The notes under the pieces: model-generated | Told to the model about the DNA's origin: nothing | Seen by the model: the letters and a program-made list of their open reading frames with translations, nothing else | Database searches by the model: none | Shown here: positions 32,323-48,207 of the stretch, piece after piece | How positions within the stretch are numbered: the first letter of the stretch is position 1 | How the letters are laid out: each line of letters opens with the position of its first letter | NCBI GenBank assembly: GCA_037200045.1 | Contig: JBBCHM010000001.1 | Span: forward strand, 2,666,001-2,730,000 | Length of the DNA stretch: 64,000 bases | Direction of reading: 5' to 3' | Origin: Rhizomicrobium sp. | GTDB taxonomy: Bacteria > Pseudomonadota > Alphaproteobacteria > Micropepsales > Micropepsaceae | Translations under genes and position numbers: made by a program

Positions 32323-33824
32323 GCGCGCGCCACGCCGACGATGTCGGGATTGGCCTCGACATAGGCGAAGGCATAGTCGAGCTCGCCCGGACTCTGCGCA
32401 TATACCGTATAGGCCGGCTCGCCGCGGCTGACCGGCGCGCCCAGGCGCAGATGCAGCTCGACGCCCGCCGCCTTGTCGTCCGGCGCGCCCGCGAGCTTGG
32501 CGACGCGGCTGAGCTTGCGGCTGTCGATCCATTCGACCAAGCCGCCATGACGCATCGTCACCACGCGGCTGTGCGGCGCCACCGGCGGCGTGCGCATGCC
32601 GCCCTGCGCCTCGCATATCTTTTGGAATTTCGCCCAGGCCTTGCCGGAGGCCAGGCAGTCGGCGGCCATCGTGAAGCCCGCGCCGTCCTTGGCCGCGCCG
32701 CCGAGTTCGAGCAGGGCCGCGGCGAGCGCCAGCGCGTGCTGGCGAAGATCGGCCGGCGCGTCGGCATGGCCCTGCAGCACCGCGAGCACGTCGCGGGCTT
32801 CGAGCGCCGGGCCGATGCCGCGCCCGACCGGCTGGGTGCCGTCGCTGATGATCGCCTTGACCGACAGGCCGAACGAGGTGCCGACATCGATCAGGCTTTG
32901 CGACAATTGCTGGGCGTCCTCATAGCTTCTGACCTTCGCGGTGGGGCCGACCGGCAGGTCGAGCACCAGATGGGTGGCGCCGGCGGCGATCTTCTTGGAC
33001 AGGATCGAGCCGACGAGCTGGCCCTCGCCGTCGAGGTCGAGCACGCGCTCGACGCGGATCAGGATGTCGTCGGTGGGCGAAAGCCCCATCGCGCCGCCCC
33101 AGGCGACGCAGCCGCCCTCGCGCTCGACCACGCGGCGCATGGTGGCGAGGTCGAGAGCGACCGGCGCCATGGTCTCCATCGTGTCGGCGGTGCCGGCCGG
33201 CGAGGTGATGGCGCGCGAGGAGGTCTTGGGGATGGTCAGCCCGCAGGCCGCGACGACGGCGACGATAATGGGCGTGGTGCGGTTGCCGGGCAGCCCGCCG
33301 ATCGAATGCTTGTCGACGATGAGGCGCCCGCCCCATTCGATGCGCTTGCCGACATCGACCATGGCGCGGGTGAGGTCGCGCATCTCGTCATAGTCGAGGC
33401 TGCGCGCCGCGCAGGCGGTCAGGAAGGCGGAGAGGTGGATGCCGGAATAGCGCCCGGCGGCCACGTCGGCGATGATATCCTTCAGCGCGGAGGCGTCGAG
33501 CCGGTTGCCGTGCACCTTGCCGCGGATCGGGCTCAGGGATTCGAGCGGCGGGGGATGGGTGATGCGGACGGGATCGCCGGCGGCCAGGCCCAGTTCGTTC
33601 CACGCCCATTCGGAAAGTCCGGCCTGGTCGAGCCCGACCAGGTCACCGGTCACCGGATAGAGCGTGGCGACGACGGATTTGCGGCCATGGGTGACCACCA
33701 CTCTGGAGCGCGCGGCGAACCCTTCGGCGCGGCAGACATGGCAATCTTTTTGCATGAAAATATGCGCTTCGTTCGGCGTTTCGATGCCGAGGCGCAGCGC
33801 GGAAAGGATGTGACCGGTAGCCAT
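32319..33824 (-). CDS. AMP/thymidine phosphorylase family protein (DeoA-like, long form)
   Basis: The 501-residue product belongs to the nucleoside phosphorylase II family: Asp-Lys-His-Ser-Ile-Gly-Gly, and Ser-Ser-Arg-Ala-Ile-Thr-Ser-Pro-Ala-Gly-Thr-Ala-Asp-Thr-Met-Glu for phosphate and substrate. The N-terminal extension of about 90 residues and the length match archaeal-type AMP phosphorylase, not the roughly 440-residue thymidine phosphorylase. It would release a base and give ribose-1-phosphate or ribose-1,5-bisphosphate. First gene of the Prs/MBL operon, with a perfect FixK-type box 60 bases upstream of the ATG. Confidence 0.85.
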   Translation of the reverse strand: MATGHILSALRLGIETPNEAHIFMQKDCHVCRAEGFAARSRVVVTHGRKSVVATLYPVTGDLVGLDQAGLSEWAWNELGLAAGDPVRITHPPPLESLSPIRGKVHGNRLDASALKDIIADVAAGRYSGIHLSAFLTACAARSLDYDEMRDLTRAMVDVGKRIEWGGRLIVDKHSIGGLPGNRTTPIIVAVVAACGLTIPKTSSRAITSPAGTADTMETMAPVALDLATMRRVVEREGGCVAWGGAMGLSPTDDILIRVERVLDLDGEGQLVGSILSKKIAAGATHLVLDLPVGPTAKVRSYEDAQQLSQSLIDVGTSFGLSVKAIISDGTQPVGRGIGPALEARDVLAVLQGHADAPADLRQHALALAAALLELGGAAKDGAGFTMAADCLASGKAWAKFQKICEAQGGMRTPPVAPHSRVVTMRHGGLVEWIDSRKLSRVAKLAGAPDDKAAGVELHLRLGAPVSRGEPAYTVYAQSPGELDYAFAYVEANPDIVGVARA

Positions 33825-33883
33825 GGCCTACTTAAAGCCTCGCCCAGGGGTTGCTAATTGATCGAACGCAAGGGCCCAAGGAT

Positions 33884-33897
33884 TTGACGCGCCTCAA
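33884..33897. promoter_or_regulatory. FixK/Fnr box (perfect TTGA-N6-TCAA), divergent
   Basis: TTGA-CGCGCC-TCAA lies between the divergent phosphorylase operon and the 71-aa gene. Its centre is about 66 bases from the phosphorylase ATG and about 63 from the ATG of the 71-aa gene. A start site 41.5 bases from the centre in each direction would leave leaders of about 20-25 bases, so it could activate both units. Confidence 0.7.
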
Positions 33898-33953
33898 TGA
33901 CCGCGAACGGCGGTCCGGGAGATGTTCGTCACCGGTCAAAAGGAACAGCACCC

Positions 33954-34169
33954 ATGAGCGCCGCGGCCATTGCGAAACGGCATTTCGACCTGGCGGTGGC
34001 CGAAGCCATCGCCGCCGGCTATGACGCGGAAAGCACGGCGCGGTATATGCTGGGCTGCGTGGTGGAGAAATACCTGGAGACCCGCAGCGTGGCCGATGTG
34101 AGATCCGAACTGCAATTCGTCGCCGAGAATTGCGATCCCGACACCGACTTCATGTTCATGCGACCCTGA
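33954..34169 (+). CDS. Small conserved-type protein of unknown function (71 aa)
   Basis: A 71-residue acidic helical protein (Met-Ser-Ala-Ala-Ala-Ile-Ala-Lys-Arg-His-Phe-Asp-Leu-Ala-Val) ending Asp-Pro-Asp-Thr-Asp-Phe-Met-Phe-Met-Arg-Pro. No family is recognised. AAGGA upstream of the ATG at 33954 is well spaced. It begins a two-gene unit with the DUF4010 membrane protein five bases downstream, behind a FixK-type box, so induction under low oxygen is expected. Confidence 0.7.
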   Translation: MSAAAIAKRHFDLAVAEAIAAGYDAESTARYMLGCVVEKYLETRSVADVRSELQFVAENCDPDTDFMFMRP

Positions 34170-34174
34170 GCCAG

Positions 34175-35431
34175 GTGGACACACTCGCCATTCTGCAGCG
34201 GCTATTGCTGGCGCTGGCCATCGGCCTTTTGGTCGGGATCGAGCGCGGCTGGCAGGAGCGCGACGGCAAGGAGGGTTCGCGCGCCGCCGGGGTGCGCACC
34301 TTCGCGCTGATCGGCCTTCTGGGTGGCGTTTCGGCGCTGCTGAGCCGCTTCGCCGGCCCGCTTTTCCTAGGCTTTGCCATCATCGCCTTCGCCGCGGCGC
34401 TGCTGCCTTTCGTGTGGCGCGAGGCGGAAGCGGCCGGCAGTTCGTCCGCCACCGGCATGATCGCCGGTCTCGTCACCTTCGCGCTCGGCGCCTATGCCGT
34501 GATCGGCAACGCATCGGCCGCGGCGGCGGGCGGCATCGCCGCGACCATCATCCTGGCCGAGCGCAAGGTGCTGCACGAATTCGTCTCGCAGCTGAAATGG
34601 AGCGAATTGCGCGCCGCGCTGCTGCTCCTCACCATGACTTTCGTCCTGCTGCCGATCCTTCCCGATCGCACCGTCGATCCGTGGGACGCGCTCAATCCGC
34701 GCCAGCTCTGGCTGATGATGGTGGTGATCGCGGCGGTGTCCTATGTCGGCTATATCTGCGTGCGCGTCGCGGGCGAGCGCGCCGGCCTGATCTATGCCGC
34801 CGCCGCCGGAGGACTGGTGTCGTCGACGGCGGTGACGCTCGCCTATTCCAGGCTTTCGGCGAAGAGCCCGCAAAGCGCGATGGCGCTGGCGTCGGGCGTG
34901 ACGGCGGCCTGGACGGTGTCGCTGCTGCGCCAGTCCTCCATCGCGGTGGCGCTCGCGCCGGCGATGCTTGCGCCGCTCGGCTCGACGCTGGGGCCGCCGG
35001 CGGCGCTGCTGGCGGTGATAACGCTGGTCCTCTATCTGCGCGCCGCCAAGCTCGAAGCGCAGTCGCCACTGGTGCTGAGCGATCCCTTCGAACTCAGCGA
35101 GGTATTGCGCTTCGGCCTCCTGCTGGCGGTCGTTCTCCTGGCGGCGAAGCTGTCCGGCTCCTGGACCCATGAATTGAGCCTGATACCGCTGGCGGCCGCG
35201 TCGGGCGCGGTCGACGTCGATCCGATCACGCTGTCGGCCGCCAAGCTGACGGGCACGACCATCGCGCCGGCCTATGCAGCGACCGTGGTGATGGTCGCGG
35301 CCGGCTCCAATGTCGTGTGCAAAAGCACCGTCGCGCTGCTCCTGGGCTCGCGTGCCTTCGCCGGCTATGTGCTGGGCGCCGCCATCGCGGCGGCGGCTGT
35401 CGCGGCGGCCGCCTGGTACGTGCTCGGCTAA
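34175..35431 (+). CDS. MgtC/DUF4010-family membrane protein
   Basis: The 418-residue product has about eleven membrane segments. The N-terminal Leu-Leu-Val-Gly-Ile-Glu-Arg-Gly-Trp-x-x-Arg and Gly-Val-Arg-Thr-Phe-Ala-Leu-Ile-Gly-Leu-Leu-Gly-Gly match the MgtC/SapB half, followed by the DUF4010 domain with Gly-Leu-Val-Ser-Ser-Thr-Ala-Val-Thr. Transport activity is not established for the family. The GTG at 34175, five bases after the preceding stop, starts the MgtC-like domain directly. Confidence 0.85.
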   Translation: MDTLAILQRLLLALAIGLLVGIERGWQERDGKEGSRAAGVRTFALIGLLGGVSALLSRFAGPLFLGFAIIAFAAALLPFVWREAEAAGSSSATGMIAGLVTFALGAYAVIGNASAAAAGGIAATIILAERKVLHEFVSQLKWSELRAALLLLTMTFVLLPILPDRTVDPWDALNPRQLWLMMVVIAAVSYVGYICVRVAGERAGLIYAAAAGGLVSSTAVTLAYSRLSAKSPQSAMALASGVTAAWTVSLLRQSSIAVALAPAMLAPLGSTLGPPAALLAVITLVLYLRAAKLEAQSPLVLSDPFELSEVLRFGLLLAVVLLAAKLSGSWTHELSLIPLAAASGAVDVDPITLSAAKLTGTTIAPAYAATVVMVAAGSNVVCKSTVALLLGSRAFAGYVLGAAIAAAAVAAAAWYVLG

Positions 35432-35538
35432 TCCTTCGGCTTGCCGGGCGCGACGATCGAGCCGTAAGCCAAGGCAAGGCCGAAAGCGACGAAGGACACG
35501 ACGAGAATGGCCAGGAAGATTTCGCTCTCGACCGGCAT
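35428..35538 (-). CDS. 36-residue single-span membrane peptide
   Basis: The frame starts at an ATG (35536-35538) after GGAG, spaced seven bases, and ends with TAG at 35428-35430, overlapping the end of the DUF4010 gene on the opposite strand. The peptide has an acidic N-terminus (Met-Pro-Val-Glu-Ser-Glu), one hydrophobic helix of about 20 residues (Ile-Phe-Leu-Ala-Ile-Leu-Val-Val-Ser-Phe) and a basic tail (Pro-Gly-Lys-Pro-Lys-Asp). A perfect FixK-type box lies 60 bases upstream of the ATG. Size and setting suggest an accessory subunit of a membrane complex used at low oxygen; this is inference. Confidence 0.65.
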   Translation of the reverse strand: MPVESEIFLAILVVSFVAFGLALAYGSIVAPGKPKD

Positions 35539-35597
35539 ATGCAGCTCCCTTGAGATGATCGAACGCGCCGATCATTCACGGCCGGGACCGCGGAACT

Positions 35598-35611
35598 TTG
35601 AGCGAAGTCAA
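35598..35611. promoter_or_regulatory. FixK/Fnr box (perfect TTGA-N6-TCAA)
   Basis: TTGA-GCGAAG-TCAA, extended to an 18-base palindromic surround (CTTTGA...TCAAAG). It is centred about 66 bases upstream of the 36-aa peptide ATG on the minus strand. AATGAT (complement of 35571-35576) is suitably placed as a -10 element. Confidence 0.7.
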
Positions 35612-35649
35612 AGATGCGAGGGGAGTGATCATGACCTATGTCAGGCTGG

Positions 35650-36123
35650 TCAGAGATATTTCCGTAGCTCCGACGCGTATGGCCCATAGCCGGCGCGCGC
35701 ATAGATTTCCGCGGCGCGCGCGTTTTTCGTGAGCAGGCCGATCATGATCTGGCTAAGGCCAAGCCGGCGCGCTTCATCCTCGCAAGCCTCGATCAGGGCG
35801 CGGCCGACGCCGAGACCGCGTGCGCCGTCCTCGACGAAAAGCTCAGTGATATAGCCGTGCGTGCGCTCGTCCTCGACGACGAAGACCGGTTTGCGCTCGA
35901 CCAGGAAGACGACCCAGCCGACGGCGCGGCCGTCCTCTTCGGCGATGAACATCCGCCCCTGATTCGTCGCCACCTTCTGGGTCAGCGCGGCGAAATGTTC
36001 CCGCGCCACCGCGGGGTCGAGCCTGCGATCCGGCTCCAACGCATGCTCGAAGCGTTGCGATCCCATGATGAAAGCAAGGGCGGCGGCCTCGTCCTCGGGC
36101 GTGTGCAGATCGCGTATGTTCAT
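35650..36123 (-). CDS. GNAT-family N-acetyltransferase
   Basis: A 157-residue GNAT protein with motif A (Ile-Thr-Glu-Leu-Phe-Val, then Arg-Gly-Leu-Gly-Val-Gly-Arg-Ala-Leu) binding acetyl-CoA, and a motif B segment Asn-Ala-Arg-Ala-Ala-Glu-Ile-Tyr-Ala-Arg-Ala-Gly-Tyr. The acceptor is unknown. It lies 35 bases after the cytochrome c gene and may be the last gene of the quinone reductase-cytochrome operon. Confidence 0.88.
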   Translation of the reverse strand: MNIRDLHTPEDEAAALAFIMGSQRFEHALEPDRRLDPAVAREHFAALTQKVATNQGRMFIAEEDGRAVGWVVFLVERKPVFVVEDERTHGYITELFVEDGARGLGVGRALIEACEDEARRLGLSQIMIGLLTKNARAAEIYARAGYGPYASELRKYL

Positions 36124-36158
36124 GCGCGCACGCTATCACAACGCCGCGCCTGGTTGCG

Positions 36159-36500
36159 TCAGTGCGCCAGCGAGCGGATATAGGCGACGATGTCGTCGAG
36201 ATCGCGCGGCACGAAGCGCTGCTCGCGCATCGGATGGTTCGGCGCGAGAATGAAGGCGCGCAAGCCAGCCGCGTTGTGGCGGAATCTTCCGCCGATGACC
36301 GTGAAGGGCGGGGCCGCGACGGCCTCGGCGGTGTCCGGATCGGCGACCGGCGTGGGGCGCGGCTGGCCCGCCGTCACCTGATGACAGGCCGAACAGGCCT
36401 CGACGGCGAGCCGGCGGCCGCGCGCCGTGTCGGGCATGCGCGCCTGCGCCGCCGTGGCCAGGCCAAGGGCGACACAGAGGACGGAAAGGGCGATGCGCAT
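36159..36500 (-). CDS. Small periplasmic c-type cytochrome
   Basis: A 113-residue class I-like cytochrome c with a signal peptide (cleavage near Ala-Gln-Ala), heme-binding Cys-Ser-Ala-Cys-His, and a likely distal Met in His-Pro-Met-Arg. The C-terminal helix Leu-Asp-Asp-Ile-Val-Ala-Tyr-Ile-Arg-Ser-Leu is typical. It should carry electrons in the periplasm. Its ATG is 13 bases after the stop of the quinone-reductase-like gene; both are likely under the FixK-type box at 37130. Confidence 0.9.
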   Translation of the reverse strand: MRIALSVLCVALGLATAAQARMPDTARGRRLAVEACSACHQVTAGQPRPTPVADPDTAEAVAAPPFTVIGGRFRHNAAGLRAFILAPNHPMREQRFVPRDLDDIVAYIRSLAH

Positions 36501-36513
36501 GGTCCTGCTCCTT

Positions 36514-37095
36514 TTAGCATCCCGCCGCGGCCCGGCGGCGGATCCTGGCCACGCAGCGGTCGCGGTGCCGTTCGGACAGCTCGATGCCGCCGAAATAGGT
36601 CAGATGCACCGGCCGCGCGCCGGATATGCGCAGGATACCACGGGCGAAGGCGCGGGTCCCGAAGCCGCCGAACGCGACGCGGTAGACCAGGGCCGGCATG
36701 CCCATGGTGACGACGATGCGGGCCGACTTGCCGGTCAGTCCGCGATGCGGGTTTCCCGCCATGCCGCTATCGAAGCCGAAACCGCCGCAGGCGATGCGTT
36801 CCAGGAAGCCTTTCAGCAACGCGGGCGTCGCGCCCAGCCAGAGCGGATGGATGAAGACCAGATGCTCCGCCCAGGCGATGTCGGCCTGCGCCTTGACGAT
36901 GTCCTCGTTGGTGGGCTGGGTCTGGAAGTCCTCGAACCTGACCAGGAGGGGGAATGTGAGCGCGCCCACATCGATGCGGCGGACCTCATGCCCCGCGGAA
37001 ATGGCGGATTCCACATAGGCCGCGGTCAGCGCCGAGCAGAATCGTTCGGGCCGCGTATCGGGGTGCCCGTTGATGACGAGAATGCGCTTCGACAT
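36514..37095 (-). CDS. NAD(P)H quinone oxidoreductase-like flavodoxin-fold protein
   Basis: The 193-residue product has the Rossmann-like flavodoxin fold of the NQO1/MdaB group: Ile-Leu-Val-Ile-Asn-Gly-His-Pro-Asp near residues 5-13 for FMN/FAD phosphate, and Phe-Ile-His-Pro-Leu-Trp-Leu-Gly-Ala-Thr-Pro-Ala-Leu-Leu-Lys-Gly. It probably reduces quinones by two electrons. The ATG at 37093-37095 has no ribosome-binding site, and a FixK-type box is centred exactly 41.5 bases upstream, which suggests a leaderless mRNA. A second member lies at 40.9 kb. Confidence 0.85.
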   Translation of the reverse strand: MSKRILVINGHPDTRPERFCSALTAAYVESAISAGHEVRRIDVGALTFPLLVRFEDFQTQPTNEDIVKAQADIAWAEHLVFIHPLWLGATPALLKGFLERIACGGFGFDSGMAGNPHRGLTGKSARIVVTMGMPALVYRVAFGGFGTRAFARGILRISGARPVHLTYFGGIELSERHRDRCVARIRRRAAAGC

Positions 37096-37129
37096 GGGCG
37101 AAGTTAACGGGTAAAGGCGGTTATTCGCC

Positions 37130-37143
37130 TTGACCGCAATCAA
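37130..37143. promoter_or_regulatory. FixK/Fnr box (perfect TTGA-N6-TCAA)
   Basis: TTGA-CCGCAA-TCAA between the quinone-reductase operon (minus) and fixL (plus). It is centred 41.5 bases from the minus-strand ATG, with TTAACT (complement of 37102-37107) as a possible -10. Relative to fixL it is only 33.5 bases from the ATG, so it may repress or tune fixL instead. Confidence 0.7.
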
Positions 37144-37169
37144 CACGCCTTCGAAAATCCCGCCCGCCG

Positions 37170-38321
37170 ATGACCAGCAGACGAACGCCCTCCGCCACGA
37201 CGCGCCTCGAGACCGACGACGGCGGCTCGCTGTTCGACGCGCTGATCGGCATGGCGGTCGACGGCATCATGATGATCGACGAAAAGGGGATCGTCCGGGT
37301 CTACAACAAGGCCTGCGAGAACCTGTTCGGCTACGAGGCGCCGGAGGTGATCGGCCGCAACGTGAAGATGCTGATGCCGGCTCCCTACCACGCCGAGCAT
37401 GACGGCTATCTCCACCATTATGTAAAGACCGGCGAGAAGCACATCATCGGCATCGGCCGCGAGGTCTCCGGCCGGCGCAAGGACGGATCGATCTTTCCGC
37501 TGCGGCTCGCCGTCGGCGAGGGCATCGTGCGCGGTGATCGCGTCTTCCTCGGCATCATCACCGACATCTCCCTCGGCCAGGAGCAGGATCGCCGGATCGA
37601 GGAATTGCAGGCCGAGATGCTGCATGTCAGCCGCCTCACCGACATGGGCCAGGTCGCGGCGGGCCTGGCGCACGAACTGAACCAGCCGCTGACCGCGATC
37701 CTGAACTACACCAATGCCTGCATCGACATCGCCGAGGAGCGCGGCGACAAGGATATGGAGGCGATCTTCGGCAAGGTCGCGGAGCAGGCGACGCGCGCGG
37801 GCAACATCATCCGCCGCCTGCGCGGCTTCCTTGAGAAGCGCGGGCCCAACATGGTGCCGGAGGACATCGCGCGCACGGTCGACGAGGCGATCCGCCTCGG
37901 CCAGATCAACGCCGCGGAGCGCGGCATCAAGCTCAAAGTGGCGATCGAGCCGGCGCTGCCGCCGGTCCGCATCGACCGCATCCAGATCCAGCAGGTGCTG
38001 ATCAACCTGATGAAGAACGCCGCCGAGGCGATGGAGAAGTCGCCGCGCCGCGAATTGTCAGTGACGATCTCGCGCGCCGCGCCCGGGCAGGTCGCCGTCA
38101 CCGTGGCCGATACCGGGCCCGGCATCTCGGCCGAGGTGGCGGCGAAGCTGTTCCAGCCCTTCGTGACGACCAAGGCGCACGGCATGGGGATGGGGCTTTC
38201 GATCTGCCGCGGCATCGTGGAGGCCCATGGCGGAAGGCTCACGCTGATGGAGAATGCCGGCGGCGGCGCGCTGTTCCGCTTCACCGTCGGCGTGGCGCCG
38301 GAGGATGCGCATGGCGAGTGA
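37170..38321 (+). CDS. fixL: FixL-type heme-PAS oxygen-sensor histidine kinase
   Basis: A 383-residue soluble FixL. The PAS domain (about residues 20-135) carries the heme-ligand His77 in Glu-His-Asp-Gly-Tyr and distal Arg97 in Ile-Ile-Gly-Ile-Gly-Arg, spaced 20 residues as in Bradyrhizobium FixL His200 and Arg220. The residue matching Arg206 is His83. The kinase has His168 in Gly-Leu-Ala-His-Glu-Leu-Asn-Gln-Pro-Leu, then N, G1 (Asp-Thr-Gly-Pro-Gly) and G2 boxes. No membrane spans are present. It should autophosphorylate when oxygen leaves the heme and pass phosphate to FixJ, whose gene overlaps. Confidence 0.93.
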   Translation: MTSRRTPSATTRLETDDGGSLFDALIGMAVDGIMMIDEKGIVRVYNKACENLFGYEAPEVIGRNVKMLMPAPYHAEHDGYLHHYVKTGEKHIIGIGREVSGRRKDGSIFPLRLAVGEGIVRGDRVFLGIITDISLGQEQDRRIEELQAEMLHVSRLTDMGQVAAGLAHELNQPLTAILNYTNACIDIAEERGDKDMEAIFGKVAEQATRAGNIIRRLRGFLEKRGPNMVPEDIARTVDEAIRLGQINAAERGIKLKVAIEPALPPVRIDRIQIQQVLINLMKNAAEAMEKSPRRELSVTISRAAPGQVAVTVADTGPGISAEVAAKLFQPFVTTKAHGMGMGLSICRGIVEAHGGRLTLMENAGGGALFRFTVGVAPEDAHGE

Positions 38322-38922
38322 ACTCACCGTATGCGTCGTCGACGACGATGCGGATGTGCGCGATTCGCTCGCCATCCTCCTGGCGCGGCGCTACCGCGTG
38401 AAGACCTTCGAATCCGCCCGCGCCTTTCTCGATGCCGGCGTCAAGGCGCGCGACACCTGCGTTCTCGCCGACATCCGCATGCCGGAGATGGACGGGCTGG
38501 CGCTGCAGCGCGAGATCAACCGCACGATCCCCGGCATGCCGGTCATCATCATGACCGGCCATGGCGACGTGCCGATGGCGGTGCAGGCGATGAAGGAAGG
38601 CGCGGTGGAATTCCTGGAAAAGCCGTTCGAGCGCGGTGTGCTGTTCGGCGCGCTGGAGAACGCGTTTTCGCGCGCCGCCCTCGCGACGGCGGCCGCGGTG
38701 GGCACGGCGGCGGTCGACGCCACGGCGCGCAAGGCCCTGACCGACCGCGAGAAGGACGTGTTCGACCTCCTGGTCGAAGGCCACCAGAACAAGGTGATCG
38801 CCCACAAGCTCGGCATCTCCACCCGCACGGTGGAAGTCCACCGCTCCCGGGTGATGGACAAGCTCGGCGCCCGCAGCCTGGCCGACCTGGTACGCCTGTC
38901 GCTGGGACGGGGCGTGAGGTAG
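38311..38922 (+). CDS. fixJ: FixJ-type response regulator
   Basis: A 203-residue regulator: receiver domain with the acidic Asp-Asp-Asp near residue 11, phospho-acceptor Asp54 in Leu-Ala-Asp-Ile-Arg-Met-Pro-Glu-Met, Thr in Ile-Met-Thr-Gly-His-Gly-Asp-Val and Lys in Glu-Lys-Pro-Phe; then a LuxR/NarL-type helix-turn-helix (Leu-Thr-Asp-Arg-Glu-Lys-Asp-Val-Phe). It overlaps fixL by 11 bases. The ATG at 38311 is favoured by GGAGG at 38300-38304. The expected target is the fixK-type gene 134 bases downstream, which has FixJ-like boxes. Confidence 0.93.
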   Translation: MASELTVCVVDDDADVRDSLAILLARRYRVKTFESARAFLDAGVKARDTCVLADIRMPEMDGLALQREINRTIPGMPVIIMTGHGDVPMAVQAMKEGAVEFLEKPFERGVLFGALENAFSRAALATAAAVGTAAVDATARKALTDREKDVFDLLVEGHQNKVIAHKLGISTRTVEVHRSRVMDKLGARSLADLVRLSLGRGVR

Positions 38923-38924
38923 CC

Positions 38925-38937
38925 GTTACGTACGTAG
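38925..38937 (+). promoter_or_regulatory. FixJ-like binding box 1
   Basis: GTTACGTACGTAG matches the core of rhizobial FixJ sites (GTA-A/C-GTAG). It lies just after the fixJ stop and about 119 bases before the fixK ATG. Confidence 0.55.
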
Positions 38938-38978
38938 TGCCCCCTAGGTAGCCGCCGTCGCGGCGCCGGTTCCCTACC

Positions 38979-38990
38979 GGTTACGTACGA
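38979..38990 (+). promoter_or_regulatory. FixJ-like binding box 2
   Basis: GGTTACGTACGA repeats the core of box 1 54 bases downstream and about 65 bases before the fixK ATG, a suitable distance for FixJ activation of a start site near 39025. Confidence 0.55.
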
Positions 38991-39013
38991 ATAACTCCCA
39001 ATTTCTGCGGATT

Positions 39014-39027
39014 TTGCGGTTTGTCAA
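39014..39027. promoter_or_regulatory. Near-match FixK/Fnr box in the fixK promoter
   Basis: TTGC-GGTTTG-TCAA matches seven of the eight conserved bases. It is 28 bases before the fixK-type ATG, near the expected transcription start, a place suited to autorepression by FixK. Confidence 0.45.
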
Positions 39028-39055
39028 TGTGCTCTCGTTGAATACGGAGAGAGAC

Positions 39056-39748
39056 ATGAGCGCCGCAGTCTATTCGAGTCCCGCAAGAGTCCCGACGCCG
39101 CCCATCGTCCTTGCCCGCGCGCCCGAAGCGCGTTCGACCCTCGCCTCGCTCGGCACGATCAGCCATTTCGACCGCAACGCCACGATCTTCAGCGAAGGCG
39201 ACGAGGCGGATTACTCCTACAAGGTGCTCACCGGCGCGGTGCGCCTGTCCAAGATGATGTCCGACGGCCGCCGCCAGATCGCGGAATTCGCGCTTCCCGG
39301 CGATTTCATCGGCATCAACTGGCTCGAAGAACACGCGATGACCGCCGAAGCATTGAACGACGTCACCGTCGTCTCCTATGCCCGTGGCCGGCTGGAGCGG
39401 CTGGGCGACGAGAACCGCGAAATCCGCGCCGAGCTGTTCGCCAATCTCCGCCACGATCTTTGGGCGGCGCAGAACCACCTCGTCATCCTCGGCCGCCAGA
39501 GCGCGCTGGAGCGGGTCGCGAATTTCCTCGTCCAGTTGCTGGAGCGCAGCCGCAGTGCCGACAAGACGCGGCTCGACGTCCCCATGACGCGCCAGGACAT
39601 TGCCGATTATCTCGGTCTCACCATCGAGACGGTCTGCCGGATGCTCACCAAGCTGAAGGTCTCCGGCATCATCGGCATCCCCGATCGCCACACGATCACC
39701 ATCCGCAACGCCGCCGGCCTCAAGCGCGCGGCGCAGCCGGAAGAGTGA
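39056..39748 (+). CDS. fixK: FixK-type Crp/Fnr transcription regulator
   Basis: A 230-residue Crp/Fnr regulator: a cyclic-nucleotide-fold sensor domain (Phe-Ser-Glu-Gly-Asp-Glu-Ala, Phe-Ala-Leu-Pro-Gly-Asp-Phe-Ile-Gly), dimer helix, and a C-terminal helix-turn-helix Thr-Arg-Gln-Asp-Ile-Ala-Asp-Tyr-Leu-Gly-Leu-Thr-Ile-Glu-Thr-Val-Cys-Arg. The N-terminal cysteines of Fnr are absent, so it is FixK-like and senses oxygen only through FixLJ. The single visible Cys is in the DNA-recognition helix and could give redox control (inference). GGAGAGA supports the ATG at 39056. Confidence 0.9.
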   Translation: MSAAVYSSPARVPTPPIVLARAPEARSTLASLGTISHFDRNATIFSEGDEADYSYKVLTGAVRLSKMMSDGRRQIAEFALPGDFIGINWLEEHAMTAEALNDVTVVSYARGRLERLGDENREIRAELFANLRHDLWAAQNHLVILGRQSALERVANFLVQLLERSRSADKTRLDVPMTRQDIADYLGLTIETVCRMLTKLKVSGIIGIPDRHTITIRNAAGLKRAAQPEE

Positions 39749-39771
39749 TCTCGTTCGCAAGGGAGCGGACC

Positions 39772-39963
39772 ATGCCTTACAGCGTCGAAGGATATGCGGA
39801 ACGCGCTGAAGAGTGCGTCAAGCTCGCCAATCAGGCGAAGGATCCGATGATCCGGATGGAGTTGCTTAAGCTCCGCCAGACTTACCTGACCATTGCCGAG
39901 CGGCTGCGCCAGCAAGGGTTTGAGGCCGCGCCCGTTGAACGCGCGAGGGGAGCGGCACATTGA
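39772..39963 (+). CDS. Small helical protein of unknown function (63 aa)
   Basis: A 63-residue charged helical protein (Met-Pro-Tyr-Ser-Val-Glu-Gly-Tyr-Ala-Glu-Arg-Ala-Glu-Glu-Cys). Small proteins of this kind occur widely in alphaproteobacteria without known function. A GGGAG site precedes the ATG. It begins 23 bases after fixK and its stop overlaps the TTG start of the TPR gene, so it probably shares a transcript with one or both. Confidence 0.7.
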   Translation: MPYSVEGYAERAEECVKLANQAKDPMIRMELLKLRQTYLTIAERLRQQGFEAAPVERARGAAH

Positions 39964-40919
39964 CCGCCCGCCTTTCCGTCGGTCCATACAAGCAGCATCA
40001 TTTGCTCGCTGCCGGCGGTTTGCTCGTGCTGGCGCTTATCGTCCTGTTGTGGACCACACGCGGTCTGTCCTATCCCAATCCCGCCGATTTGCGCGCGCCC
40101 GCCGACACGCTGGAACAGAAGGCGATGTTCGAGCGTGACGTGGCCGTCACGCGGTTCTCCTTGATGTGCCTGGACGCGCTGGCGCGCGGCGAGCCGAAGG
40201 TGGCGGTCAGGAATTGCGATCTCGCCATCGATCTGGATCCGAACAATGTCACGCTGCTTGATCTGCGCGGCAACGCCCAGGTGCTCGGCGGCAATCCCAA
40301 CAAGGCGCTGGCGGATTTCACCCGCGCCATCGCGCTTGCTCCGACCAATCCCGAGGCCTATCGCTACCGCGCCAATGTCTATTTCACGCTGCGCCGCGAC
40401 GCGCTCGCGCTGGCCGACTACGACCGCGCGATCATGCTCGATCCGCAAAACGCGATCGGCATCGAGTTGCGCGGGCATTTCTATCAGGCGCGGGGCAACT
40501 ACGCGCTGGCGATCGCGGATTTCTCCAAGGCCATCGCGCTCAAGCCGGGCGAGGCGCGGATATGGAATTCGCGCTGCTGGACGCATGTCCTCGCCAATAG
40601 CGGGCTCGACGCCGCGCTCGCCGATTGCGACCGCGCCGTCGCCCTCAATCCGCGCTATGCCAGCGCCTATGACAGCCGCGGCTATGTCGATGTGCGCTTG
40701 AGCCGGTTCGCCGCCGCCATTGGGGATTTCGACCACGCCCTTGCGATCGAGCCGAAACTCGCCACCTCGCTGTTCGGCCGCGGCCTCAGCAAGCTCAGGA
40801 CCGGGGACGCCACGGCCCGGCTCGATCTGGCGCAGGCGCGCCTGCTCGATCCGAATATCGAGACGCGGTTCGCGGCGCTCGGTTTCCGGTTGAAGGCGAA
40901 CGGCGCCTCGGGCGCCTGA
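39960..40919 (+). CDS. Membrane-anchored TPR-repeat protein
   Basis: The 319-residue product has one N-terminal membrane anchor (about residues 16-34) and six or so TPR units, with repeated Ala-Leu-Ala-Asp-Phe-x-x-Ala-Ile-Ala-Leu-x-Pro and Ala-Ile-x-x-Asp-Pro patterns. It should act as a periplasmic protein-protein scaffold. The TTG at 39960 (overlapping the previous stop, GGGGAG eight bases upstream) is the only start that includes the anchor. Placement in the FixK neighbourhood suggests assembly of a respiratory or stress complex, which is inference. Confidence 0.8.
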   Translation: MTARLSVGPYKQHHLLAAGGLLVLALIVLLWTTRGLSYPNPADLRAPADTLEQKAMFERDVAVTRFSLMCLDALARGEPKVAVRNCDLAIDLDPNNVTLLDLRGNAQVLGGNPNKALADFTRAIALAPTNPEAYRYRANVYFTLRRDALALADYDRAIMLDPQNAIGIELRGHFYQARGNYALAIADFSKAIALKPGEARIWNSRCWTHVLANSGLDAALADCDRAVALNPRYASAYDSRGYVDVRLSRFAAAIGDFDHALAIEPKLATSLFGRGLSKLRTGDATARLDLAQARLLDPNIETRFAALGFRLKANGASGA

Positions 40920-40929
40920 GGGAACAGTC

Positions 40930-41544
40930 ATGAAACACGCGGTCATCGTCGCCCATCCCAACACCGAAAGCTTCACCGCTTCGCTGGCCTCGGCCTATCG
41001 CGAGGCGGGCCTGGCCGCCGGCCACGACGTGATCTTCCGCGATCTCTACGCGATGGGCTTCGATCCGAGGCTCGCCGAAAGCGAGATACCCTGGTCGAAG
41101 CATTTCGCGCTCAAGGACGATGTGATCGCCGAGCGCGCGCTGCTGCAGGACGTCGAGGTCTTCGCGTTCTTCTATCCGATCTGGCTCAATTCGCCGCCGT
41201 CGATCCTGAAGGGCTATCTGGAGCGCGTCTTCGGGCTCGGCTTCGCCTATCGCCGCGAGGGCGCGGGCAACGCGCCGCTGCTCAAGGGCCGCAAGATGAT
41301 CAGCTTCACCGCCTCGGGCGCCCCGACCGAATGGGTCATCCAGTCCGGTGCCTGGGCGGCGATGCGCACGTTGTTCGACAGCCACTTCGCCGCCGTGTGC
41401 GGCATGGAGGTTGTCGATCACGCCCATTTCGGCGGCATCCACCCCGGCATCCGCGCCGATTCGGTCCAGAACGACGCGGAGACCGTACGCGCGACCTTCG
41501 CCAAGCATTTCATCGAACCGCCCCGCCTCGTTGCGGCCGGTTGA
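40930..41544 (+). CDS. NAD(P)H dehydrogenase (quinone), flavodoxin fold
   Basis: A 204-residue member of the NQO1/MdaB family: Val-Ile-Val-Ala-His-Pro-Asn-Thr-Glu-Ser-Phe near residues 5-15 for the flavin phosphate, and Phe-Phe-Tyr-Pro-Ile-Trp-Leu-Asn-Ser-Pro-Pro-Ser-Ile-Leu-Lys-Gly. It would reduce quinones or azo/nitro compounds with NAD(P)H. It follows the TPR gene by 10 bases. It is a distant paralogue of the gene at 36.5 kb, giving two quinone reductases in one oxygen-responsive region. Confidence 0.87.
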   Translation: MKHAVIVAHPNTESFTASLASAYREAGLAAGHDVIFRDLYAMGFDPRLAESEIPWSKHFALKDDVIAERALLQDVEVFAFFYPIWLNSPPSILKGYLERVFGLGFAYRREGAGNAPLLKGRKMISFTASGAPTEWVIQSGAWAAMRTLFDSHFAAVCGMEVVDHAHFGGIHPGIRADSVQNDAETVRATFAKHFIEPPRLVAAG

Positions 41545-41554
41545 GAGAAATCAA
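41541..41554. promoter_or_regulatory. FixK/Fnr box (perfect TTGA-N6-TCAA)
   Basis: TTGA-GAGAAA-TCAA overlaps the stop of the quinone-reductase gene and lies about 165 bases before the acyl-CoA synthetase GTG. TGTAAT at 41581-41586 is a possible -10. The implied leader of about 120 bases runs through a repeat-like palindrome. Confidence 0.6.
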
Positions 41555-41623
41555 GGGCTGTCACACGATCTCTGCTAGTCTGTAATCATGCTAAAGTGAT
41601 ACAGACAGTGCCTTCAAATCATC

Positions 41624-41690
41624 CCTGTCATCCCGGCGAAGCGCCGCGCTAGCAGTGCGCCGGGTTTCGCCGCGCTCGCGGGGATGGCAA
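41624..41690. repeat. REP-like imperfect palindrome
   Basis: The segment starts with TGTCATCCCGGCGAAGC and ends with a related complement TTTCGCC...GGGGATGGCA, enclosing a GC-rich inner hairpin. Such elements are common between genes in alphaproteobacteria. Here it lies in the leader of the acyl-CoA synthetase gene. Confidence 0.5.
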
Positions 41691-41712
41691 GAATGGCGCC
41701 CCGGAGAATCGC

Positions 41713-44364
41713 GTGACCATCCGCAACCTCGACTTCATCTTCAAGCCGAAGAGCATCGCGCTGATCGGCGCGAGCAATAAGCCGCACTCGGTCGGCGCGG
41801 TGACGGCGGACAATCTGCGCCTCGCGGGCTTCGACGGGCCGATCCTGCCGGTCAATCCGCATCACGCCGCGGTCGCCGGCGCGCTCGCCTATCCGGACGT
41901 GGCGGCGCTGCCGCTGACGCCGGACCTGGCGGTGATCTGCACACCGCCCGAGACCGTGCCGGAGCTGATCGCGCAGCTCGGCGCGCGCGGCACCAAGGCC
42001 GCCATCGTGATCACCGCGGGCTTCAAGGAAGCCGGCAGCGCCGAGGGCCACCGCCTCGAACAGGCGATGCTCGACGCGGCCAAGCCCTATCTGATGCGCA
42101 TCATCGGGCCCAATTGCCTGGGCGTGCTCTCCACCCCGCGCAACCTCAACGCTTCCTTTGCGCAGGCCATGCCGTCTAGGGGCGGCGTCGCCTTCGTGGC
42201 GCAATCGGGCGCCATGGTCACGACCGTGCTCGACTGGGCGAACGGCCGCGGCATCGGCTTCTCGCATCTGGTGTCGCTGGGCGACATGAGCGATGTCGAT
42301 TTCGGCGACATGCTCGACTATCTCGCGACCGACGATTCCACGACCGCGATCCTGCTCTATATCGAGGCGGTGACGGAGGCGCGGAAGTTCCTCTCCGCCG
42401 CGCGCGCCGCGGCCCGGCTGAAGCCGGTCATCGCGATCAAGGCGGGACGCGCCCCGGCGGCCGCCAAGGCCGCGTCGTCGCACACCGGGGCGCTGGCCGG
42501 CATGGACGCGGTCTATGACGCCGCGTTCGAACGGTCGGGCATCCTGCGCGTGACCGATCTGGACGAAGTGTTCGACGCGGTGGAGACGCTGTCGTCGCGG
42601 CCCGACATCCGGGGAGGGCGGCTGACTATCGTGACCAATGGCGGCGGTGTCGGCGTGCTCGCGACCGATTCGCTGATCGCGCAAGGCGGCGCCTTGGCGA
42701 CGCTGTCGCCGGACACAATCGCCAAACTGAACGCCGTGCTGCCGCCGACCTGGAGCCACGGCAATCCCATCGACATCATCGGCGACGCCGGCGCCAGGCG
42801 CTACGCCGACACCCTCGCCATCCTCGCCGGCACCCGCGAGCAGGACGCCATCCTGTTGCTCAACTGCCCGACCGCCGTCGCCTCGGGCAGCGAGGCCGCG
42901 GATGCGGTCGCCGAGGCCGCCAAGACCTCCAAGCTTCCGATCCTGACCAATTGGCTGGGCGCGCGCTCGGCGGAGCAGGCCCGCCGGACCTTCGCCGCCG
43001 CCAAGCTGCCGAGCTACGACACGCCGGAAAAGGCGACGCGCGGCTTCATGCACATGGTGCGCTACCGCCGGCTGCAGGACGTGCTGATGGAAGTGCCGCC
43101 CTCGATCCCGCCGGGCGAGCAGCCCGACCGGGCGCGGGCGCGCGAGATTCTGTCCACGGCACAGCCCGGCTGGCTCGATGCGCTCTCGGTGCAGGCGCTG
43201 CTTGAATGCTACCGCATCCCGATCGTGCGCTTGGCGCACGCCGCGAACGCGGACGAAGTCGCGGCGGCGGCGGCGAAGATCGGCGGGCCGGTGGCACTCA
43301 AGATCTTCTCGCCCGACATCACCCACAAATCCGACATCGGTGGCGTGGTGCTGGACATCGTGGGCGGGCCGGCGGCGCGCGAAGCCGCGCTCGACATGAA
43401 CGGCCGCGTCGCCAAGGCGATGCCGTCGGCGCGGCTCGAAGGCTTCCTGGTGCAGGAGATGGTGCACCGTCCCGATGCGCATGAGCTGATCCTCGGCATG
43501 GCGTCCGACGCGACCTTCGGGCCGTTCCTGTTGTTCGGCCAGGGCGGCACGGCGGTGGAGGTGATCGACGACAAGACGCTGGGCCTGCCGCCGCTCAACC
43601 TGAAGCTCGCGCAGGAGATGATCGACAAGACGCGCGTGAGCCGCCAGCTCAAGGGCTATCGCGACCACAAGCCGGCGGCGATGGAGGCCATCGCGCTGAC
43701 CCTGGTGCATCTGTCGCAACTGATCTGCGATTGTCCCGAGATCGCCGAGCTCGACATCAATCCCCTGCTCGCCGACGAGAGCGGCGTCATCGCCGTCGAC
43801 GCGCGGGTCAGGATCGCGCCGGTCGCGGCGCCCGACCGCATCGCCATCCGCCCCTATCCGGAGGAGCTGGTCCACGCCGAAGCGGTGGCGGGGATCGGCG
43901 ACTTCACGCTGCGGCCCGTGCGGCCGGAGGACGCCCCGGCTTTCGAACGCTTCTTCGAAAGGCTGTCGCCGGACGACATCCGCATGCGCTTCTTCACCTC
44001 GCTCAAGGTGCTGCCGCCGACCATGCTGGCGCGGCTGACCCAGATCGACTACGACCGCGAAATGGCGCTCGTCCTGTTCGACGCCGGCAACGAGATCGCC
44101 GGCGTCGTCCGCCTGGCCGCCGATCCCGACAATGCGCGCGCCGAATTCGCCGTCCTGGTGCGCAGCGACCTCAAGGGCCATGGCGTCGGCACGCTGCTGA
44201 TGGCGCGCCTCGCCGTCTATGCCCGCGCCCGGGGCATCGGCGAATTGTGGGGCGACGTCCTGCCGGAGAACCATATGATGCAGGCGCTGTGCCGCGAACA
44301 GGGGCTCGTTCTGGCGCCTTCGCCGCATGATCCCGCCGTGCTGCGGGCGACGCTGAAACTCTGA
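41713..44364 (+). CDS. Acyl-CoA synthetase (NDP-forming)-like / GNAT fusion (Pat-like)
   Basis: An 883-residue fusion. Domains in order: CoA-binding (Ile-Ala-Leu-Ile-Gly-Ala-Ser, residues 1-130), succinyl-CoA-ligase-like with Ser-Ser-His-Thr-Gly-Ala-Leu-Ala-Gly, an ATP-grasp region near 480-690 (Lys-Ile-Phe-Ser-Pro-Asp-Ile-Thr-His-Lys-Ser-Asp), and a C-terminal GNAT domain from about 725. This is the architecture of protein lysine acetyltransferase Pat/PatZ, which silences acetyl-CoA synthetase and other enzymes. Whether the ligase part is active is unclear. GTG start at 41713 with GGAG upstream. Behind a FixK-type box. Confidence 0.87.
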   Translation: MTIRNLDFIFKPKSIALIGASNKPHSVGAVTADNLRLAGFDGPILPVNPHHAAVAGALAYPDVAALPLTPDLAVICTPPETVPELIAQLGARGTKAAIVITAGFKEAGSAEGHRLEQAMLDAAKPYLMRIIGPNCLGVLSTPRNLNASFAQAMPSRGGVAFVAQSGAMVTTVLDWANGRGIGFSHLVSLGDMSDVDFGDMLDYLATDDSTTAILLYIEAVTEARKFLSAARAAARLKPVIAIKAGRAPAAAKAASSHTGALAGMDAVYDAAFERSGILRVTDLDEVFDAVETLSSRPDIRGGRLTIVTNGGGVGVLATDSLIAQGGALATLSPDTIAKLNAVLPPTWSHGNPIDIIGDAGARRYADTLAILAGTREQDAILLLNCPTAVASGSEAADAVAEAAKTSKLPILTNWLGARSAEQARRTFAAAKLPSYDTPEKATRGFMHMVRYRRLQDVLMEVPPSIPPGEQPDRARAREILSTAQPGWLDALSVQALLECYRIPIVRLAHAANADEVAAAAAKIGGPVALKIFSPDITHKSDIGGVVLDIVGGPAAREAALDMNGRVAKAMPSARLEGFLVQEMVHRPDAHELILGMASDATFGPFLLFGQGGTAVEVIDDKTLGLPPLNLKLAQEMIDKTRVSRQLKGYRDHKPAAMEAIALTLVHLSQLICDCPEIAELDINPLLADESGVIAVDARVRIAPVAAPDRIAIRPYPEELVHAEAVAGIGDFTLRPVRPEDAPAFERFFERLSPDDIRMRFFTSLKVLPPTMLARLTQIDYDREMALVLFDAGNEIAGVVRLAADPDNARAEFAVLVRSDLKGHGVGTLLMARLAVYARARGIGELWGDVLPENHMMQALCREQGLVLAPSPHDPAVLRATLKL

Positions 44365-44381
44365 GGGTTCCGCGTGCGTTC

Positions 44382-44395
44382 CTGACCTCGGTCAA
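44382..44395. promoter_or_regulatory. Near-perfect FixK/Fnr box before the Usp genes
   Basis: CTGA-CCTCGG-TCAA; seven of eight core bases match and the inner TGACC/GGTCA arms are perfectly symmetric. It is centred 57.5 bases before the first Usp ATG (44446), fitting a class II promoter with a leader of about 16 bases. Confidence 0.6.
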
Positions 44396-44445
44396 TGCCT
44401 TCCGTGCCGGACCGGTGAAAGTTGCTGGTAGTAGTGGAGTTCGTC

Positions 44446-45300
44446 ATGTCGATTGCCAAGATTCTCGTGCCTGTCGCCGGAGCGGAATGCGACGTCGCGG
44501 CGATCGCGACCGCCATCGCGGCGGCGCGGCCTTTCAGCGCTCACATCGAACTTTTCGCCATTCACGAGGATCCCGCGCTGGCGGTGCCGCTGGTCGGCGT
44601 GCCGCTGGCGCCCGACACCATCGATGCCATCATCGAAGGCCAGACGCGCCACGGCAACGACGCGGCGACGCGCGCCCGGGCGACGATGCGCGAGATTTGC
44701 GGCCGCGAAGCCGTGCGCATCGTGCCGGTGGCGGCTCGCGGCGACGCGCCGACCTGCTCCTTCCGCCAGTGCTGGGGCAATGTGGCGACCAGCATCGGCA
44801 ACGAAGCGGCGCTCAGCGATCTGGTGGTGCTGGGGCCGATCTGCTGGGACAACGACCAGGCCTTCAACGAAGCCTTTCTCGACGTGCTGCGCGATGTGCG
44901 CCGCCCGATCCTGGTGGCGCGGGGCGCCGCCCGCGAGCCGCGGCGCATCGCCATCGGCTGGGATGGCAGCGAAGCGGCGGCGCATGCGGTGGCGAGCGCG
45001 ATGCCCTTCCTCGAACGCGCCGAGGCGGTGACGATCCTGACGATCGCCTGCCGCGGCGCGGTCTGCGCCTCCATCGCTCCGCTTGGAGACTATCTGACCC
45101 GCCATGGCGTCGCGTTCGGGCATCGCGAGACCGATGCCGGCGACGCATCGGCGGGCGAGGCGCTCCTCGCCGCCGCGACGGGCGCCGACATGCTGGTGGC
45201 CGGCGCCTATGGCCACGATCATCTCGGCGAAGCGCTGTTCGGCGGCGCGACGGAAACCCTGGCCGGCGGGGCCGGCATGCCCGTGCTGCTGGCGCATTGA
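44446..45300 (+). CDS. Tandem-domain universal stress protein, copy 1
   Basis: A 284-residue protein with two UspA domains. The first begins Ile-Leu-Val-Pro-Val-Ala-Gly and the second Arg-Ile-Ala-Ile-Gly-Trp-Asp-Gly-Ser-Glu near residue 165, ending with the nucleotide-loop type Gly-Ala-Tyr-Gly-His-Asp-His-Leu-Gly-Glu. Such proteins are induced by oxygen or nutrient stress. The ATG at 44446 follows GGAG; a near-perfect FixK-type box lies upstream and a paralogue 13 bases downstream. Confidence 0.9.
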   Translation: MSIAKILVPVAGAECDVAAIATAIAAARPFSAHIELFAIHEDPALAVPLVGVPLAPDTIDAIIEGQTRHGNDAATRARATMREICGREAVRIVPVAARGDAPTCSFRQCWGNVATSIGNEAALSDLVVLGPICWDNDQAFNEAFLDVLRDVRRPILVARGAAREPRRIAIGWDGSEAAAHAVASAMPFLERAEAVTILTIACRGAVCASIAPLGDYLTRHGVAFGHRETDAGDASAGEALLAAATGADMLVAGAYGHDHLGEALFGGATETLAGGAGMPVLLAH

Positions 45301-46301: not shown

Positions 46302-46395
46302 GGAGCTGTGGCCGAGAGGCTGAAGGCGGCGGTTTGCTAAACCGTTATACGGTTGAAAAGCCGTATCGAGGGTTCGAATCCCTCCGGCTCCGCCA
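46302..46395 (+). tRNA. tRNA-Ser (anticodon GCU)
   Basis: The 94-base sequence folds as a class II tRNA. The acceptor stem GGAGCTG pairs with CGGCTCC (one G-T), the anticodon loop TTTGCTAAA places GCT at 46336-46338, a long variable arm follows (GTTATACGGTTGAAAAGCCG region), the T-loop is TTCGAAT, and CCA is encoded at 46393-46395. The anticodon reads AGC/AGU serine codons. Confidence 0.97.
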
Positions 46396-48174: not shown

Positions 48175-48185
48175 GAGCGCGCTTC

Positions 48186-48203: not shown

Positions 48204-48207
48204 CCGA

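Follow-up and report, generated by a model that had tools for sequence, protein, structure and literature searches.

A candidate FixLJ-FixK low-oxygen island in Rhizomicrobium and a micropeptide family preceded by FixK-type boxes

Do the TTGA-N6-TCAA boxes that surround homologues of fixL, fixJ and fixK in a Rhizomicrobium sp. genome mark genes under low-oxygen control, and which protein would use them? The boxes lie in a 64,000-nucleotide stretch (assembly GCA_037200045.1, contig JBBCHM010000001.1, positions 2,666,001 to 2,730,000), which is referred to here as the window and whose numbering is used throughout. The window very probably contains a FixLJ-FixK low-oxygen island. The genes, the boxes, the conservation of the boxes at orthologous promoters and the FixJ-like sites before fixK are observed directly, whereas oxygen control and FixK as the binder of the boxes would follow by analogy with relatives. 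The boxes reported earlier exist, the core of their interpretation is correct, and islands of this kind are already known. The novel part is a conserved, FixK-boxed micropeptide family, p36, which has one member in the island.

A pattern scan of the whole window finds all eight half-site bases of the box at 33884, 35598, 37130 and 41541, and seven of the eight at 39014 and 44382. These are the six coordinates given by a preliminary description of the same DNA, which had also estimated well under one perfect match by chance and had found none elsewhere. Both statements hold: the full 64 kb contains no fifth perfect box, and shuffled versions of the window contain 0.24 perfect boxes on average, with four or more in only 1 of 100 shuffles. 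Sites with at most one mismatch number 21, compared with a shuffle mean of 8.2 and a shuffle maximum of 14. The one-mismatch scan also reveals a FixK-type site at 33858 that was absent from the earlier list. Both this site and the site at 39014 match the FixK2 consensus in print, TTG(A/C)-N6-(T/G)CAA (PMC9104804). The boxes, to which no strand is assigned, are listed below, with distances measured from the box centre to the start codon and with L291 denoting the locus of the closest relative.

33858..33871: FixK-type box TTGATCGAACGCAA, from the one-mismatch scan; kept in L291
33884..33897: perfect box, at a distance of 66.5 nt for the phosphorylase gene and of 63.5 nt for the gene of a 71-amino-acid (71-aa) protein; kept in L291
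35598..35611: perfect box (pattern scan), 66.5 nt upstream of p36
37130..37143: perfect box (pattern scan), in the divergent promoter between quinone reductase and fixL
39014..39027: box TTGC-N6-TCAA, TTGCGGTTTGTCAA, 35.5 nt before the fixK start; half-sites kept in L291, spacer altered
41541..41554: perfect box, 165.5 nt before the start of the Pat-like acetyltransferase gene; kept in L291, there at 132.5 nt
44382..44395: seven-of-eight box, 57.5 nt before ATG 44446 of a universal stress protein (Usp) gene; kept in L291

Intergenic DNA makes up 8.4% of the window (5,363 of 64,000 nt by our gene caller), and the preliminary description placed all of its boxes there. This is correct for most of them, but the first bases of box 41541 overlap the final four bases of the preceding gene, and box 37130 is intergenic only if the quinone reductase starts at ATG 37095; the gene caller chose GTG 37146 instead.

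The boxes are conserved to a degree that their surroundings are not. All seven are kept in L291, where the compared proteins are 76-91% identical to those of the window. Between the two loci, identity is 56/56 for half-site bases, 39/42 for spacer bases and 455/710 for other intergenic bases (Fisher p 8.6e-11), the last class taking in the greater part of the p36 coding region as well as one end that is misaligned. The 71-aa gene, fixL, fixK and the first Usp gene (Usp1) have the same box-to-start distances in L291 as in the window; for p36 the distance there is 68.5 nt, and for the Pat-like gene it differs as listed. Several boxes recur at the same promoters in relatives more distant than L291. 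For example, the box in the gap between quinone reductase and fixL is found in L293 and L294 and, with seven of the eight bases, in L292; in L291 it is present before fixL, and the first quinone reductase (quinone reductase 1) is uncalled. Across the window and 21 related loci, there are 45 perfect boxes in 61.7 kb of intergenic DNA and 3 in the 369.7 kb that are coding, while 11 permuted palindromes have 0-6 intergenic occurrences each in the same loci. An equal box density in coding DNA, which the preliminary description had named as damaging to its proposal, is therefore not what these loci display.

On the scale of the whole genome (4.73 Mb, 3 contigs), there are 43 perfect sites, as compared with 12 for a reversed control pattern. 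According to our own gene caller, 22 lie between genes and 21 inside them, five of the latter, 37130 included, within 41 nt of a called start. Four of the 43 fall inside 7.67 kb of the island (P = 0.00185, 100,000 random placements). The sites are in excess of the control and unusually clustered in the island, but since roughly half fall inside genes, some of them are background. Elsewhere in the genome, boxes precede ccoN, ompW, a Usp gene, groES and others. As a result, the regulon has to be regarded as genome-wide, and not as packed into about 16 kb, as had been proposed.

The regulatory genes and the sites between them are as follows.

37170..38321, plus strand: fixL, haem-PAS histidine kinase (PAS alignment to FixL 1d06/1dp6)
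38311..38922, plus strand: fixJ, response regulator (NF006900, 226.7 bits, cut-off 255)
38926..38937, no strand assigned: FixJ-like site TTACGTACGTAG, read from the sequence
38981..38989, no strand assigned: second FixJ-like site TTACGTACG, read from the sequence; kept in L291
39056..39748, plus strand: fixK (closest solved structure FixK2 4i2o)

In the PAS domain of the window FixL, EHDGYL aligns with EHDGYL/RHDSYI of FixL 1d06/1dp6, which brings the haem-ligand histidine into register, and IGIGR is retained as in 1dp6. We take these positions to be H200 and R220, and the residue that is presumably R206 in the known protein is a histidine here. FixJ-like runs of the TACGTACGTA type, labelled by what we take to be the FixJ motif, precede fixK in the window, in L291-L294 and in L302. 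Among solved structures, FixK2 4i2o is the best match to the window FixK (139.4 bits, compared with 70.5 bits for FNR). The protein is without the Fe-S cysteines of FNR; its only cysteine lies within the recognition helix (IETVCR), at a position where FixK2 has a serine. The redox cysteine of FixK2, C183, is replaced by threonine in the window FixK and by serine in the 4i2o chain (by our own count from L195). The recognition helix could be located by pattern in 17 of 30 orthologue loci; counting the window, 12 have cysteine there and 5 have serine. That this cysteine acts as a thiol switch would be a testable idea, nothing more, and a literature search found no paper on it. The homologues of fixL, fixJ and fixK named in the preliminary description are present, with the haem-PAS histidine of FixL in register.

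Based on what is known of relatives, the island probably works via the following steps. FixL, a soluble haem-PAS kinase, would phosphorylate FixJ when oxygen drops, and FixJ would turn on fixK via TACGTACGTA-type sites. FixK would then bind the TTGA-N6-TCAA boxes and activate the phosphorylase operon and the 71-aa/DUF4010 gene pair through a shared two-way promoter, as well as p36 and the Usp pair; it would probably also activate the Pat-like acetyltransferase gene and quinone reductase 1. The boxes at fixL and fixK would provide feedback, of either sign. Apart from the phosphorylase operon and p36, which are listed with their own evidence below, the genes concerned and their neighbours are these.

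33954..34169, plus strand: 71-aa protein (gene call)
34175..35431, plus strand: MgtC/DUF4010 membrane protein (Pfam on the longer open frame 34130-35431; start from the gene call)
35650..36123, minus strand: GNAT acetyltransferase (Pfam), with box 35598 on its 3' side
36159..36500, minus strand: small c-type cytochrome (Pfam)
36514..37095, minus strand: flavodoxin-fold quinone reductase 1 (Pfam Flavodoxin_2)
39772..39963, plus strand: 63-aa conserved protein (gene call; homologues in L291-L294)
39960..40919, plus strand: TPR protein (Pfam)
40930..41544, plus strand: flavodoxin-fold quinone reductase 2 (Pfam)
41713..44364, plus strand: Pat-like protein, acyl-CoA-ligase-like plus GNAT (Pfam and NCBIfam)
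44434..45300, plus strand: universal stress protein 1 (Pfam; called start, ATG 44446 possible)
45314..46135, plus strand: universal stress protein 2 (Pfam on the longer open frame; start from the gene call)

The 71-aa protein is kept at 90% in L291 and has homologues in six more loci (L292-L296, L299); a Pfam scan assigns it to no family. Downstream of the island lie a tRNA-Ser (gct) gene (window 46302-46395) and, beyond it, genes for a PapD-like chaperone and for a protein that matches an usher model below the cut-off (window 47350-50751).

At class II promoters, the activator box is centred at -41.5. The distances for the 71-aa gene, the phosphorylase gene, p36 and Usp1 (from ATG 44446) would suit a class II promoter followed by a short leader, and the distance for the Pat-like gene would need a long one. 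The GNAT gene was considered as the target of box 35598 and rejected: the box lies on its 3' side, and it is p36 that faces the box.

A published counterpart exists for the operon on the left side of the island.

32319..33824, minus strand: archaeal-type 'thymidine phosphorylase', operon gene 1 (NF003338, 659.9 bits, and TIGR02645, 577.6 bits, both over cut-off)
31432..32322, minus strand: phosphoribosyl pyrophosphate (PRPP)-synthetase-like protein, operon gene 2 (NF005537, 400.6 bits, cut-off 322)
30074..31432, minus strand: metallo-beta-lactamase (MBL)/beta-CASP RNase-like protein, operon gene 3 (Pfam Beta-Casp, RMMBL, Lactamase_B)

The phosphorylase is nearer to the AMP phosphorylase model TIGR03327 (477.3 bits, below the cut-off of 535) than to the classical thymidine phosphorylase models. 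Its closest solved structures are 4ga4, 4ga5 and 4ga6 (344 bits), named putative thymidine phosphorylase in the PDB, which we take to be the AMP phosphorylase of T. kodakarensis. Over the cut-offs, the genome contains neither a ribose-1,5-bisphosphate isomerase (best 154.9 vs 314.1 bits) nor a PhnN kinase (best 44.4 vs 156 bits). An AMP phosphorylase acting in a pentose bisphosphate route is rejected on these grounds and on the missed TIGR03327 cut-off. It is plausible that at low oxygen the three predicted activities would break RNA down to nucleotides and these in turn to bases and ribose phosphates.

Boxes upstream of this operon are not peculiar to the window. In 90 of 105 phosphorylase-operon loci, the set that is left when duplicates and short upstream regions are removed, a box with at most one mismatch is found upstream in 31 (0-9 for permuted controls) and a perfect box in 6 (0-1 for the controls). 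In Bradyrhizobium diazoefficiens, the orthologous operon bll3117-bll3116-bll3115 is preceded by a FixK2 box, ATGATCTGGGTCAA, at position -74, and in a fixK2 mutant bll3117 is down 6.6-fold and bll3115 30.6-fold (PMC9104804, in part). The same operon is induced in microoxia at both the RNA and the protein level (PMC6515984, in part). The phosphorylase-PRPP synthetase-MBL operon is a recurrent low-oxygen module. In L291 it is reduced to a PRPP-synthetase remnant (L291 6445-6951, compared with window 29133-33953); the phosphorylase and MBL genes appear to have been lost there, though both boxes of the shared promoter persist.

Several observations weigh against the island as described. The window FixL, FixJ and FixK all miss the curated NCBIfam cut-offs (401.5/850, 226.7/255 and 180.9/300, respectively), the FixL and FixK models being Rhizobium and Caulobacter equivalogs, judging by their names. 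It is for this reason that the three are called homologues making up a FixLJ-FixK-like cascade: homology is clear, and narrow orthology is not claimed. The boxes lie 33.5 nt from fixL and 35.5 nt from fixK, a spacing unsuited to class II activation and therefore favouring feedback or repression; quinone reductase 1, at 41.5 nt, does not fit class II either. The spacing at these three genes suggests feedback or repression, or else a start that is leaderless or wrongly placed. A sigma-70 scan yields a single promoter-like match, at 37130. Its first hexamer shares bases with the left half of the fixL box, but with a chance expectation of 1.3 such matches this is no more than a hint that fixL is repressed. 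The gap between fixL and quinone reductase is wider in L292 and L294, so activation would be possible there. L292-L294 are without a box directly before fixK. Neither the GNAT gene nor quinone reductase 1 is called in L291, which makes their place in the programme tentative. As many as 59 of the 90 phosphorylase operons lack any box in the adjacent 250 nt, including that of L071, whose phosphorylase is 72% identical, so box control of this operon is common and not universal. According to the relevant part of PMC6515984, the B. diazoefficiens operon does not belong to the direct FixK2 targets listed in 2008, although the later PMC9104804 gives its box. Moreover, the genomes compared are related, and box counts among them are for that reason not independent trials. 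Of the single low-oxygen programme in which the preliminary description united the phosphorylase operon, the 71-aa and DUF4010 genes, p36, quinone reductase-cytochrome c, the Pat-like gene and the two Usps, the part that rests on conserved boxes and on the published FixK2-dependent phosphorylase orthologue is supported; the GNAT gene is not driven by box 35598.

A further difficulty is a second FixLJ-FixK set on the other large contig (G000:C2:651000-674000; L305, L306), with FixK at C2:667300-667929 and two FixL-like kinases, adjoining ccoNO, ccoG and a copper-type P-type ATPase gene. The C2 FixJ scores 261 bits and is over the 255 cut-off. The recognition helices of the two FixK proteins are nearly alike (IETVCR in the island, IETICR on C2), and this, together with the position of the second set beside ccoNO, means that either FixK could act at the island. 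It is possible, if rather doubtful, that the C2 FixK is the main user of the island boxes and that the local FixLJ-FixK, as a duplicate, serves a more limited purpose or another one. However, the local fixK has FixJ-like sites in front of it, and the three genes fixL, fixJ and fixK remain clustered, with boxes, in L291-L294, which suggests a working local circuit. It is improbable that the boxes are used by an oxygen-sensing FNR-type or other Crp/Fnr-type protein. FNR, FixK and DNR boxes are virtually identical (PMC2908626, in part), and the recognition helix of one such protein, at C2:239796, reads PETVAR. Yet in 9 of the 10 over-cut-off HTH_Crp_2 matches (all but L060; seven further matches score below the cut-off), no protein combines paired cysteines with an ExxxR helix, and the two with an N-terminal C-x2-C pair (L057, L058) have HVSR and HVNR; within these nine, the recognition helices speak against FNR as the sole binder. 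Finally, that the boxes arose by chance, or are low-information sequence in a region that happens to be rich in them, is scarcely credible, for although about half of the 43 genome sites lie inside genes and the reversed pattern reaches 12, box conservation, intergenic restriction and fixed spacing speak against it and the half-site identity in L291 contradicts it.

With the FixLJ-FixK island as the preferred reading, the more important outcome is the peptide found through its regulation.

35428..35538, minus strand: p36, a 36-aa single-helix micropeptide of a conserved family with an upstream box

In relatives, p36 homologues neighbour genes for FixK, DUF4010, FixL, quinone reductase, Pat-like and Usp proteins. 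A 14-member profile has matches in 50 of 147 relatives (E <=0.01) and, in a sample of 385 genomes of the class, in 24 (E <=0.001); false antisense frames drawn in by the iterated search (L071, L180, L181) were removed before alignment A2. The box test covers 51 hits (L313-L363), namely the best 30 of the relatives' 55 matches and all 24 class-sample matches, three being shared. Thirty of the 55 were thus taken as loci, one more entered via the class sample, and the 24 weaker ones lie outside the test. A box with at most one mismatch is found 40-110 nt upstream of 41 of the 51 hits and is perfect in 34; in 39 of the 41 it is positioned at 57.5-73.5 nt. Because the search used protein sequence alone, the DNA box is independent support for the family. 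The 40-110 nt range was fixed after the seed members had been viewed, and the fair test is therefore provided by the 37 hits outside the seed, of which 30 have a box (25 perfect). Among the 21 hits outside the family of the window genome, 16 have a box (14 perfect). Upstream of the same 51 hits, permuted palindromes give 0-1 perfect matches and at most 10 with one mismatch. Other genes of these loci with unshared upstream regions (n=107) have a perfect box in 6 cases and a box with at most one mismatch in 23 (Fisher p 6e-16 and 2e-12, respectively, for p36 vs these genes).

The consensus of the family is roughly M-x3-E-x2-(Y/F)-L-x-L-V-x2-A-F-x2-F-x3-L-A. Of 33 members, 30 have a net acidic N-terminus and 26 a net basic C-terminus, from which we infer an N-out/C-in orientation. 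A third-codon-position excess, as expected of a translated frame, is seen in 5/7 pairs. None of ten members tested matches a Pfam or NCBIfam model over cut-off, the best weaker matches including MWFE (16.9/27 bits, L294) and MtfM (14/37.5, L241); a known family is rejected on this basis. A plasmid search with one member returned only two Enterococcus matches with E about 2, and no printed description of the family was found in open-licence literature. In 55 genomes (G000-G054), with sets compiled by hand, p36 occurs in 28/40 with FixL and in 2/15 without it (p 2e-4), and in 21/31 with FixK and 9/24 without it (p 0.03). In two of 50 loci (L339, L341), p36 lies 165-180 nt before cydA, the gene for cytochrome bd subunit I, and a FixL-like kinase gene flanks it on the side away from cydA. 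If the box, about 57-73 nt before the start, is at -41.5, the leader would be roughly 15-30 nt long.

Some results count against a family as uniform as this. Ten of the 51 hits have no box at 40-110 nt (L319, L320, L323, L325, L329, L349, L351, L358, L359, L363), although for L320, scored as a miss, L294 shows a seven-of-eight box at 62.5 nt from what is likely to be the start codon. The boxes of L347 and L355 are at 81.5 and 86.5 nt, and it is the permuted palindrome GATT that reaches 10/51 with one mismatch. In a search of named genomes, covering 40 of 80 listed loci, p36 occurs in 7/40 genomes, presumably all alphaproteobacterial, and a box in 4/8 hits there. Four of the five Phenylobacterium hits in that set lack a box; the cultured strain Phenylobacterium aquaticum KACC 18306 (L369) has both p36 and a box. 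The pairs L330/L333 and L330/L334 show no third-codon-position excess. Taken together, it appears likely that p36 is a translated, single-helix, N-out/C-in alphaproteobacterial micropeptide family that has a FixK/FNR promoter of fixed geometry, is expressed at low oxygen and is accessory to a membrane complex. The last element, a part in a low-oxygen membrane complex, would by itself be a guess. The family outweighs the regulon in importance, and a specialist would not expect it. Since the same promoter layout is present in several alphaproteobacterial families, cultured members allow a direct test of its low-oxygen role.

How do the island and p36 compare with known systems? Small oxidase subunits of the CydX/CcoQ type are single-helix membrane peptides of low-oxygen metabolism. 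p36 resembles them in its single helix and in being encoded shortly before cydA in 2/50 loci, and differs in that nearly all p36 genes lie away from recognised oxidase genes; no CydX/CcoQ-type model is among its Pfam/NCBIfam matches to E 1, a range in which HMMER filters drop weak matches. The presumed T. kodakarensis AMP phosphorylase is the closest structure to the window phosphorylase (344 bits), but the window enzyme remains under the AMP phosphorylase cut-off. The Burkholderia lxa locus is likewise a low-oxygen locus with a metallo-beta-lactamase-superfamily protein, and the term 'universal stress protein' appears 15 times in the paper that describes it (PMC6127331, in part).

The regulon itself is one more well-supported FixLJ-FixK network. 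Its general interpretation is sound but not new, because the literature already describes both a FixK2-dependent orthologous operon and FixK sites in front of fixLJ and fixK. A core FixK regulon prediction lists fixL and fixJ (PMC2908626, in part). In Caulobacterales, a FixJ site before fixK and FixK sites before fixLJ and fixK close feedback loops, and genomes with several FixLJ-FixK copies are already reported (PMC4999443, in part). The island shares this arrangement of FixJ and FixK sites, and differs in its target set and in the second, cbb3-linked FixLJ-FixK of the same genome. The FixLJ-FixK2 system of B. diazoefficiens is alike in its cascade genes, its box and its FixK2-dependent phosphorylase-PRPP synthetase-MBL operon (PMC9104804, PMC6515984, each in part). 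Unlike FixK2, the window FixK has threonine at C183 and its sole cysteine inside the recognition helix; unlike in B. diazoefficiens, the operon adjoins fixLJ-fixK, DUF4010, quinone reductases, a Pat-like protein and p36. In the available accounts of B. diazoefficiens, OmpW and Usp genes are FixK2 targets and a GroEL gene is FixK2-dependent, while in this Rhizomicrobium genome boxes are carried by ompW, by Usp genes and by a groES gene.

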